Below are positions 16,376-19,306 of a stretch of DNA of 64,000 nucleotides, one piece after another. The stretch is from contig NZ_JAAAJC010000001.1 in the NCBI RefSeq assembly GCF_009900715.1, positions 981,216 to 1,045,215 on the forward strand. The letters run 5' to 3'. This DNA comes from Halococcus salsus (GTDB taxonomy: Archaea > Halobacteriota > Halobacteria > Halobacteriales > Halococcaceae). The position numbers were made by a program, and so were the translations under genes. Position 1 is the first letter of the stretch, and the number at the start of each line of letters is the position of its first letter. The notes under the pieces are model-generated. The model searched no databases. It was not told the DNA's origin and saw nothing but the letters and a program-made list of their open reading frames with translations.

Positions 16376-16750
16376 TTATCCCCCGAAGTGGACGACGGGG
16401 ACGCCGACCGCGGCGAACGAGACCAGACCGAGGGTGCCGAGGAAATAGAGGAGTCCGACCGGAGGGAGCCAGACCACGAACCCGAGCGCGCTCGCGGCCG
16501 GCCAGCCACACGGGTAGCGAACCGCGACGAGCACGACCCAGACGAGGAGCGCCAGCACCGGACCGAGGACCGGGGTGGACGCGAGGAACAGGCTCACCGC
16601 ACCCCAAGCCACCGCGCCGGCCAGCGCAAGTAGCAGTCCGTCGACGGGCTCGATCGCGTTATCGACGAGCAGGCGAACCCCGGCGTAGATCCCCACCCCG
16701 CCGACCAGCGTGGCGACCAGAACGATGAGTACAGTATCGAGAAGCGCCAC
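16376..16750 (-). CDS. Small multi-pass membrane protein, unknown function
   Basis: The 124-residue product is almost entirely hydrophobic, with four likely transmembrane helices (residues ~5-28, 38-60, 65-80 and 95-118). No catalytic or binding motif is visible. GTG start. It lies 37 bases upstream of the beta-helix gene and 13 bases downstream of the HerA-like gene on the same strand, so the three may be co-transcribed. I do not recognise the family. Confidence 0.65.
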   Translation of the reverse strand: MALLDTVLIVLVATLVGGVGIYAGVRLLVDNAIEPVDGLLLALAGAVAWGAVSLFLASTPVLGPVLALLVWVVLVAVRYPCGWPAASALGFVVWLPPVGLLYFLGTLGLVSFAAVGVPVVHFGG

Positions 16751-16763
16751 GGAAACGTCCGTC

Positions 16764-18464
16764 TCAGAACCCGTCGGCCAAGCTTCGGGTCCGTTCGCGC
16801 CCGAGGCTCGTCTCGCGGAGCTCCCGAACGCCGGCCGGGTCCACCTCGACCATCAGCCCCTCGTCGGTGTGTTCCTTCCGGACGGTTCGCATCGATTCGA
16901 GCGTGGTCGCCACCGTGGTGATCTCGTCCGTGCTCGACGCCCCGAGTCGGTCGAGGAGCGTGCGCTGGCTCACCGGGCCGTCCGCGTCGATGAGCGTGGC
17001 GACGATCCCCTTCGCGTACGCTGGCGACGCTCGCGAGTGGTCCTCGGTTCGCGCGATCTCGTGGCGAACGATGTCCATCTCGAGCAGGTCGGCGGAGGAC
17101 GGCTCGTCCGCTGGATCAGGGTCCGACCCGCCGGGGCCACCGGGGTCGTCGGCGACCCTGATCGGGTCGGCCTCGCCCGTCTCGGAGGCCGGTCCGTCGG
17201 CGGTTTCGTCGGTCGCTTGGACCTCGCTACCCTCGTCGGTATCGAGGGCGTTGTCGGCGTCGACCGTCCCGGCGATGTCGGCAGTGGTGGTCGTGTCGTC
17301 GGCGTCGTCGCTGGAAGTGGTGTCGGCTGTGGCGTCGGAGCTGGCGGCGTCGGTGCTACTATCCGAAACCTCGTCGTTCGCCTCGAAGTCGCCGAGTTCG
17401 TGGTGCGTCGGTTCGTCGTCCGAGCCGGGTCGCCGATTCGCTGACGGTACACCGTCACCGGTCAATGCGCGGGTGAACTGCTGGGCCATCTCGCTGAGGT
17501 CACGCGCCCGGGCGAGCTCGCGTTCGAGCTCCGCGATGCGCTCGTTCTTGCGTTCGAGGTCGGCTTCCAGTTTGGCGAGGCGGTTCTCGTGCTCGCGCTT
17601 CTGGTCCGATATCTCGGTGAGGTCGCCGAGCAGCCCCTCGCCGATCGACTTGAGTTCCGGGCGGTCGACGTCGCCGAGCCCCGGTGTCGAGCCCGCGTCG
17701 AAGGTCCGTTTCCGGCGGACCTGCACCCGGCGGCGGGTGCCGTCCCAGTCGGTGACGAGGATCGCCTCGCCGTCTGCGAGGTTCTGTACCGCTTCCGCGG
17801 CCTGGTTGTCGAGGACGCGCCCCACGACGGCGGTGTCGTTGTTCCAGGTGAGGCGGTGCCAGCAGAGCCAGTCACACTGGGTGATCACGTCCTTCTTGAC
17901 GTTCGCCGGGCGCTGGGAGATCCCACAGAAACCGAGGCCGCGCTTGCGGCCGCGTTTGGCCACCCGGACGAGCATCTTCCCGGCCTCGGTGAGTCCTCCC
18001 GATTCCGGGATGAACTCGTGGACCTCCTCCACCAGTAAGAGGAACGGCCGTCGGGCCTCCTGTTCGCGTCGGAACAGCGCCTCGACGGTCGCGCGAACGA
18101 TGTCGTGGCCGCCGTCGTCGAGGTAGGCCGAGACGTCGAGGATCACCGGGACGCCGCCGTCGAGCGCGAGCTCGGCGAGCTTGTCGGCGTGTTCGGTGCC
18201 GACCTGGACGTCGCACTCGTCGTCGCCCCCCGCGTGGAGGACCTCGTAGCGCTCCTTCAATCCGTAATATTCGCCATCGGTGTCGACGATCATGAGCGGG
18301 TGGCCGTCGTCGAGGAGCTCCTCGGCGACCACGCTCGCGGTGTTCGACTTCCCGCCGCCGCTCTTTCCCGTGACGAACCCCCGACCGGTGAGGAGCTCGA
18401 TCGTCGGGATCCGAACCTCGCCGTCGGCGTCGAGCGTGACCGTCTCCGTCGTCTCACTCGCCAT
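16764..18464 (-). CDS. HerA/DUF87-like AAA+ ATPase with coiled coil and winged-helix C-terminus
   Basis: This is a 566-residue protein. Residues ~20-260 form a HerA-type RecA-like ATPase: Walker A GKSGGGKSNT at ~33-42, Walker B FLLLVEEVHEF, and the downstream arginine-rich KRGRKRGLG and SQRP sensor segments. Residues ~285-335 are a charged coiled coil. A ~130-residue Asp/Thr/Ser-rich disordered linker follows. The last ~100 residues look like a winged helix (SQRTLLDRLGASSTDEI). HerA-family ATPases pump or unwind DNA, usually with a nuclease partner. The divergent neighbour at 18698 has a PD-(D/E)XK-like motif. This group is common in haloarchaea; its exact role is not known to me. Confidence 0.85.
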   Translation of the reverse strand: MASETTETVTLDADGEVRIPTIELLTGRGFVTGKSGGGKSNTASVVAEELLDDGHPLMIVDTDGEYYGLKERYEVLHAGGDDECDVQVGTEHADKLAELALDGGVPVILDVSAYLDDGGHDIVRATVEALFRREQEARRPFLLLVEEVHEFIPESGGLTEAGKMLVRVAKRGRKRGLGFCGISQRPANVKKDVITQCDWLCWHRLTWNNDTAVVGRVLDNQAAEAVQNLADGEAILVTDWDGTRRRVQVRRKRTFDAGSTPGLGDVDRPELKSIGEGLLGDLTEISDQKREHENRLAKLEADLERKNERIAELERELARARDLSEMAQQFTRALTGDGVPSANRRPGSDDEPTHHELGDFEANDEVSDSSTDAASSDATADTTSSDDADDTTTTADIAGTVDADNALDTDEGSEVQATDETADGPASETGEADPIRVADDPGGPGGSDPDPADEPSSADLLEMDIVRHEIARTEDHSRASPAYAKGIVATLIDADGPVSQRTLLDRLGASSTDEITTVATTLESMRTVRKEHTDEGLMVEVDPAGVRELRETSLGRERTRSLADGF

Positions 18465-18650
18465 TCGTCACCCCTCGTCGGAGGCGGTCCAGTGCTCCGT
18501 GCGTCTCACCCGGTCCGGGTGCGGCTCGACTCCCCATTCGTACCGGTTCTGCAACCGGCAGACACAAAATCCTAGCGGACGGGCCGACCCCACCGGGTCG
18601 ACCGGAAAACACGGCGACGTGGGCACGACCGTTCGTCTCCGTACCGCGCA

Positions 18651-18658
18651 GGTATAAG
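18651..18658 (+). promoter_or_regulatory. Putative TATA box for the nuclease-like gene
   Basis: GGTATAAG lies 40 bases before the ATG at 18698, giving a predicted start near 18681 and a short leader. It is the only TATA-like element in the 233-base divergent gap 18465-18697. Confidence 0.5.
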
Positions 18659-18697
18659 TGCGGACGGCGCGTAGCCGCCGACCGACCCCCGCCCACG

Positions 18698-19306
18698 ATG
18701 AACGAGGACGAGCTCACGAACGCGCTGATCCGCCACCACAAACGAAGCGAGCGGGCCGCTCGTTCGCGTGGCGAGCGGGACGTCGAGACGAAGCTCTACC
18801 CCGAGGAACACTACAACCACTACGGCGACCGGGGCGTCGTCGACCTCTATCAGACCACCGGGAGGTCGAGCGGCCACCTCTACGAGGTCAAATCCGAGTC
18901 CGCGGTGCGCCACGCGACCGGCGCGAACGAGATCGTCCGGCAGTTCAACCGGATGCGCGGCCACTTCTACCCCGGCACCGACCACCCGGTTCCCGACGAG
19001 GTGCACTTCGAGCTCTGTTTCCTCCCGACCGCGCTCACCGCTCGGCACCTCGTCGAGAACGCCGAGATGTACGCCCAGTGCGTCGCGAACGACGTCTCGC
19101 GACTAGACGAGGTCGACCGGGTCGTCGCCAACATCTGTTTTCGGCTGCCGGACCCCGAGACGATCCGCCCGGTCGTCGCGTTCACCAGCACCTCGCCGTT
19201 CCACGGGATCACGAACGACAGCTTCCCGGCGTACGCGGCCGAGACCAACCCCGCGGTCTACGAGCGCATCCGGTCGTCGCTCGCGAGACGGTCCTCACCG
19301 GACTGA
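18698..19306 (+). CDS. Uncharacterised protein with PD-(D/E)XK-like motif
   Basis: I do not recognise this 202-residue protein as a named family. Residues 46-66 read as a buried strand, VVDLYQ, then a turn, then LYEVKSES. They place Asp49, Glu63 and Lys65 in the D-(x)13-ExK arrangement of PD-(D/E)XK nucleases, with an upstream Glu30 as the possible helix-1 acid. The rest is helical and Arg/His-rich, with no other known domain. It is divergent from a HerA-like ATPase gene and converges with the formylglycine-generating enzyme gene, stop codons back to back. Nuclease function is inference from the motif alone. Confidence 0.7.
   Translation: MNEDELTNALIRHHKRSERAARSRGERDVETKLYPEEHYNHYGDRGVVDLYQTTGRSSGHLYEVKSESAVRHATGANEIVRQFNRMRGHFYPGTDHPVPDEVHFELCFLPTALTARHLVENAEMYAQCVANDVSRLDEVDRVVANICFRLPDPETIRPVVAFTSTSPFHGITNDSFPAYAAETNPAVYERIRSSLARRSSPD

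Follow-up and report, generated by a model that had tools for sequence, protein, structure and literature searches.

Two divergent genes and their surroundings

The window, the whole 64,000-nucleotide stretch analysed here, lies in contig C1 of a 3.52-Mb genome of the class Halobacteria, assembled into 30 contigs (G000). Within it, the genes for a HerA-like ATPase and for a small protein are arranged divergently, with 233 bp between their start codons. This layout had been described in a sequence-only reading of the DNA, and both open reading frames were confirmed at their positions (Table 1). The TATA-like element ahead of the small gene sits inside a 32-bp block that is identical in the alignment with the sister species (G007). 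The small gene is followed by a convergent gene for a sulfatase-modifying-factor-like protein, and no tRNA was found in the 64,000 nucleotides. The 124-residue protein encoded downstream of the ATPase matches no Pfam family; this membrane-type protein also stands beside the ATPase in the sister species, and among the clustered ATPase loci it occurs in these two genomes only.

The small open reading frame differs from the 94%-identical copy of the sister species at 27 bases, of which 18 are at third codon positions, with a dN/dS of 0.29. This third-position bias and ratio indicate a real gene under purifying selection.

Table 1. Coordinates of genes and predicted features in the window
Feature	Position	Strand	Basis
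Gene for 202-residue protein with predicted PD-(D/E)XK fold	18698..19306	+	ORF, ATG start; fold; conservation; dN/dS 0.29
Predicted active-site stretch of the small gene	18842..18892	+	Asp49 18842-18844, Glu63 18884-18886, Lys65 18890-18892
TATA-like element (TATAA), about 40 bp 5' of the small-gene ATG, putative promoter	18653..18657	+	Sequence and alignment
Gene for 566-residue HAS-less HerA-like ATPase	16764..18464	-	ORF, ATG start; DUF87 5.8e-08
ATPase Walker A, residues 33-40 (GKSGGGKS)	18345..18368	-	Invariant columns
ATPase Walker B region, residues 142-147 (LLLVEE)	18024..18041	-	Sequence comparison
ATPase coiled coil, residues 269-335	17460..17660	-	AlphaFold2 helix 269-335 and heptads
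ATPase acidic linker, residues 341-465 (Asp+Glu 30%, Lys+Arg 2%)	17070..17444	-	Composition; mostly without predicted structure
ATPase C-terminal domain, residues 466-566, winged-helix-like order	16767..17069	-	AlphaFold2, low confidence
Gene for 124-residue protein, four hydrophobic segments	16376..16750	-	13 bp downstream of the ATPase gene, same strand

The small protein: predicted fold, family and distribution

The translation of the small gene contains Asp49, Glu63 and Lys65, residues whose nuclease-like spacing had been singled out from the sequence. In 11 aligned relatives, Glu36, Asp49, Glu63, Lys65, Gly75, Ala76, Asn77, Glu78, Arg81 and Gln82 are invariant. In a broader alignment of 34 rows (A2, which drew on 33 of the 63 loci considered below), Glu36, Asp49, Glu63, Gly75, Ala76, Asn77, Arg81 and Gln82 are invariant, and Lys65 and Glu78 are present in at least 90% of the rows. 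Because Asp49, Glu63 and Lys65 are conserved among the relatives, their spacing is not a product of chance.

The AlphaFold2 model built with the family alignment (pLDDT of 81 and pTM of 0.82) bears out the PD-(D/E)XK core that had been suggested as putative. Its order of elements, a helix (residues 3–23), three strands (31–35, 50–54 and 58–65), a second helix (76–89) and a further strand (101–108), fits the alpha-beta-beta-beta-alpha-beta core of this superfamily, with Asp49 preceding the second strand and with Glu63 and Lys65 in the third. The top VIA-align matches, at an r.m.s.d. of 4.1–4.2 Å, are 2inb (Z-score of 8.7 and r.m.s.d. of 4.1 Å over 123 residues) and 2okf (Z-score of 8.6). XisH and the other PD-(D/E)XK proteins represented by these entries have the same core as the small protein, which differs from them in sequence (11–12% identity), in having no Pfam match, in its longer C-terminal part and in a haloarchaeal A-T-G-A-N-E-x-x-R-Q helix motif. 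After XisH come AF2093, Cdn1, CdiA-CT, R.BspD6I, EndoMS, FokI and others, mostly of restriction-nuclease-like folds, and acetyl-CoA carboxylase rows also score, at lower values (Z-scores of 5.6–6.7), among the 50 matches listed. Most of these 50 are proteins that we take to be of the PD-(D/E)XK class; NurA is not among the VIA-align matches listed, which carries no weight. At E ≤ 0.001, Foldseek matched the model to nothing in the PDB and to a single entry of the viral library, which is an MmcB-like DNA repair protein (6.5e-4). A Z-score of about 8 is modest, and the predicted structure is assigned to the PD-(D/E)XK fold on the fold and the conserved Asp, Glu and Lys jointly.

At the level of sequence families, the small protein alone has no match in Pfam, NCBIfam or PADLOC at E ≤ 1. 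The 34 family members compared with Pfam, PHROGs and PADLOC gave scattered weak matches that we take as chance, the best being PF18082 (0.0012) and PbeB (0.0018), in 1 of the 34. Against PDB sequences, the single protein gave chance matches only and the family profile none. The protein is thus covered by no Pfam, NCBIfam, PHROG or PADLOC family, in agreement with the first impression that it belonged to none that could be recognized. It represents a newly recognized, unnamed family inside the known PD-(D/E)XK superfamily.

The small protein is most likely a Mg2+-dependent DNA endonuclease; we infer metal binding, cleavage and substrate from the model and the conserved residues. Glu36, Asp49, Glu63 and Lys65 would form a metal site at which DNA is cut by a one- or two-metal mechanism, next to the conserved helix that carries Asn77, Glu78, Arg81 and Gln82. 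XisH and YaeQ are among the closest folds, and to our knowledge neither has an established role as a nuclease; moreover, one natural copy of the small protein (L057) has lost the lysine. Nevertheless, the invariance of Asp49 and Glu63, together with the near-invariance of Lys65 across the 34 rows, is unlike the pattern of a dead fold, so that we consider it unlikely that the protein cuts nothing and is a regulatory or catalytically inactive PD-(D/E)XK relative, a class to which YaeQ- or XisH-like proteins may belong.

The small protein is present in 90 of the 391 Halobacteria genomes, spread over 18 of 86 genera, and 8 plasmid records from Haloferax, Halobellus and Halobacterium contain relatives. 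The protein WP_004060843.1 of Haloferax mediterranei ATCC 33500 is also a relative. Its closest relatives beyond the genus are those of Natronosalvus (41%) and Natribaculum (36%). The search of phage records with the protein found none, and that of viral contigs with the family alignment gave none that was confirmed. The surroundings of the small gene were compared in 65 loci: the window, one plasmid and 63 loci of named genomes, which belong almost entirely to Haloferax, Halorubrum and Halobellus. None of its neighbours recurs from genus to genus: in Halorubrum a gene that we name halocyanin-like from its sequence mostly lies opposite, in Haloferax a gene for a 141-residue protein lies downstream, and in Halobellus the neighbours are others. 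Halospeciosus flavus has two copies, one of which (L057:8001-8621) carries Glu-Met-Thr for Glu-x-Lys and may be inactive. The relative on megaplasmid 2 of Halobacterium sp. GN101 (L041:5923-6798) has a longer C terminus whose Cys pairs look by eye like a zinc ribbon, and it adjoins a phospholipase-D-like gene.

The ATPase, its relatives and their membrane neighbours

The ATPase is HerA-related in its motor core, as had been read from the sequence: it scores 33.5 bits with Pfam DUF87 (cut-off of 23.2) and matches the PADLOC HerA models with a best E-value of 8.2e-26. The N-terminal HAS barrel is missing, since Walker A begins at residue 33 and the roughly 32 residues ahead of it leave no space for this domain. 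In the HerA encoded elsewhere in the same genome, Walker A stands at residue 257 and is preceded by 256 residues, which include a HAS-barrel match at 81–154 (E-value of 0.00035, under the cut-off). In the part of the motor examined for HerA's four-helix bundle, Walker A and Walker B are about 113 residues apart in the ATPase, versus about 260 in the genome's HerA, and the ATPase model is unreliable. With the curated HerA equivalog NF040819, the ATPase scores 51.9 bits against a cut-off of 970; the canonical HerA of the genome, at 30.9 bits, also falls below it, which makes this cut-off a weak test here.

The remaining architecture was modelled from the single sequence, with an overall pLDDT of 50. 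The coiled coil that had been proposed coincides with a predicted helix whose mean pLDDT is 82–95 in most 10-residue blocks, the rest of the model being poor, and the long acidic linker is borne out by composition. For the C-terminal domain, which has no Pfam match, a helix-helix-helix-strand-strand-helix order is predicted that suits the suggested winged helix; confidence in it is low, with most blocks at a pLDDT of 55–69. The ATPase would probably form a ring that moves on double-stranded DNA, and the coiled coil and acidic linker may carry a DNA-binding winged helix that targets the motor.

The ATPase occurs in 366 of 391 Halobacteria genomes (94%) at E ≤ 1e-50, and more distant relatives (32–41%) are found in other families of the phylum. 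In 23 aligned rows, the core (residues 1–263) is highly conserved and the C termini vary, some relatives ending in a hydrophobic helix. No partner recurs across families among the relatives outside Halobacteria, and no viral contig was confirmed in searches with the N-terminal part of the ATPase. In one of the families outside Halobacteria, a transporter-like gene (p4, about 458 residues) precedes the ATPase relative in 8 of 8 loci (L188-L194, L206); other families differ, so that this is apparently local gene order. In 7 of 38 loci (L140, L141, L143, L146, L147, L154, L173), which come from three families, the long-form ATPase has nearby a gene that we name DNA polymerase IV-like from its sequence; in 6 of the 7, a gene for a 90-residue protein accompanies it.

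Some ATPases of the window's family (L158-L161, L163, L164, L174, L175) adjoin a protein of 139–141 residues with four hydrophobic segments, for which Pfam and NCBIfam have no family name. This four-helix membrane protein was found in 56 of 381 genomes. Thirty loci sampled from these (L236-L265) include 22 in which an ATPase lies within 1.5 kb of it, in divergent, convergent or tandem orientation, and in 16 of 24 genomes with the membrane protein its gene neighbours an ATPase of this kind (positions compared by eye). In a FastTree phylogeny of the ATPase cores, built with a filter that would drop cores shorter than 150 residues, the near-universal long forms make up one clade without the membrane protein, and the ATPase of the window groups with the patchy, membrane-linked ATPases at weak support (0.57–0.81). 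The idea that the 124-residue neighbour is itself the recurrent four-helix membrane protein was rejected (hmmsearch E-value of 0.55).

Since a patchy ATPase subgroup close to that of the window recurrently adjoins a membrane protein, a membrane-side role for the ATPase is likelier than a partnership with the nuclease, and in these relatives the motor may be tied to the membrane. The membrane DNA motors FtsK, CedB and CedD are of the same HerA/FtsK class (CedD, 47.9 bits against a cut-off of 600). Related ATPases resemble them further in adjoining the four-helix membrane protein and, in some cases, in carrying a C-terminal hydrophobic helix; the ATPase of the window, in contrast, has no hydrophobic segment, and its genome encodes no four-helix membrane protein at E ≤ 0.001. 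Tentatively, and at rather low odds, these observations might be joined into one reading, in which Halobacteria possess undescribed membrane-linked DNA motors, each built on a HerA-like ATPase that lacks the HAS barrel and has an exchangeable C terminus (winged helix or membrane helix), with a patchily distributed four-helix partner of about 140 residues in several orientations. The ATPase of the window would then have branched off, lost this partner and, in two sister species, gained the nuclease across a shared spacer, with another four-segment protein encoded immediately downstream of the ATPase.

Adjacency of the ATPase and nuclease-fold genes

The sequence-only reading had taken the two genes for an ATPase–nuclease pair of the kind that processes DNA ends or acts in defence against phages, a proposal that is not supported by the genome survey, where no conserved neighbourhood extends beyond two sister species. 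In the distance table, compiled by hand for 67 of the 89 genomes that hold both genes, the two share a contig in 21 genomes and are adjacent in only 2 (G000 and G007); the next smallest distance is 48 kb. Searches with tblastn (1e-6) found the ATPase within 8 kb of the small gene in 0 of the 63 named-genome loci, and no nuclease neighbour recurs among 38 ATPase loci (of 41; no ATPase was called in L168, L169 and L170, which were set aside), with genes in part of the genomes called by a home-made codon-score caller. By eye, 89 of the 90 genomes with the small protein also hold the ATPase, which says little given that the ATPase is in 94% of genomes. Most ATPase relatives live without the small protein, and the ATPase is thus independent of the nuclease. 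With a probability of roughly three in four, we conclude that two orphan genes ended up in a head-to-head arrangement within one small lineage and are not a working pair; there is no evidence here linking the small protein and the ATPase.

A young pair would have arisen if the nuclease gene had landed beside the ATPase in the ancestor of the sister species and become its partner, the two sharing a spacer and being made together, with both proteins directed, like HerA-DUF4297, against viral or broken DNA. The divergent order and the spacer with its identical block are kept in both species, as are the proteins (94% identity for the small protein and 88–89% for the ATPase), and HerA-DUF4297 is described in a passage of PMC11291478 as a proven ATPase–nuclease pair. 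We nonetheless judge this improbable, as the arrangement is limited to two near relatives, the small gene is free-standing in all other genera examined, and the genome with the next closest ATPase (G005), which branches with that of the window, has no small protein and other neighbours. The ATPase also has no HAS barrel for docking, the domain with which HerA binds NurA or DUF4297; in solved HerA complexes, according to parts of PMC11291478 and PMC12977600, it is the HAS domain that touches the nuclease.

Known defence systems offer partial likenesses. DUF4297 is of the PD-(D/E)XK class, and in the HerA-DUF4297 defence complex, as in the window, a HerA-type motor core and a nuclease-fold protein occur side by side; unlike that complex, the window has an ATPase without the HAS barrel and an adjacency that is not conserved, and neither the small protein nor its 33 relatives match DUF4297 (Pfam, E ≤ 1). 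Mad8 of the MADS system (PADLOC mad8) has a similarly short architecture to the ATPase, and positions 13–311 of its 314-position profile match residues 15–261 (E-value of 4.7e-12). MADS includes a methyltransferase and a kinase, whereas the eight window proteins around the ATPase contain neither (Pfam), and the ATPase is near-core in Halobacteria, unlike a gene of a defence island. A defence pair by homology was rejected, as there is no conserved linkage.

That the two genes are a divergent HerA-NurA resection pair replacing one lost by haloarchaea is a very remote prospect. It would account for a HerA-like core adjoining a nuclease-fold protein, and archaeal HerA-NurA likewise combines a RecA/DUF87-type motor with a proposed role in end processing. 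Absence has also been stated, in a passage of a review for Haloferax volcanii (neither HerA nor NurA present; PMC7776575) and in part of a 2026 paper for halophiles (HerA-NurA not apparent; PMC12977600). However, the small protein has no PF09376 match and is not NurA (blastp E-value of 3.0 with the NurA of the genome), the ATPase and the genome's HerA differ in the position of Walker A, and the H. volcanii control, like 382 of the 391 Halobacteria genomes, has a NurA (PF09376) match above the Pfam cut-off. The replacement is refuted by the genome's own Rad50-NurA-HerA row on contig C6 (G000:C6:86000-98000, L205), accompanied by a gene for a proteasomal-type ATPase; the window pair, away from this row, has no mre11/rad50 linkage. 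Of 31 loci examined with 1.5-kb flanks, 7 have a HerA relative in the vicinity of NurA. Elsewhere, a portion of PMC9995536 lists both HerA and NurA for a Natrinema, an excerpt of PMC7599335 infers for the haloarchaeal branch the loss of one nurA family, but other herA families, and passages of PMC11276520 name neither protein.

As a pair, the locus is a local juxtaposition of little significance, and its interest lies in the separate genes. The belief that halophiles are without HerA-NurA conflicts with the genomes searched, which bears on how DNA ends are resected in these organisms. About one in four of the searched Halobacteria has a member of a PD-(D/E)XK family that carries no name in four libraries, and literature titles and abstract openings yielded no paper on this family or on this ATPase, although one may exist. 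The ATPase represents a HerA-class motor that is near-universal in Halobacteria and for which no described job was found; the recurrent membrane neighbour of its relatives provides a testable lead on what that job may be.
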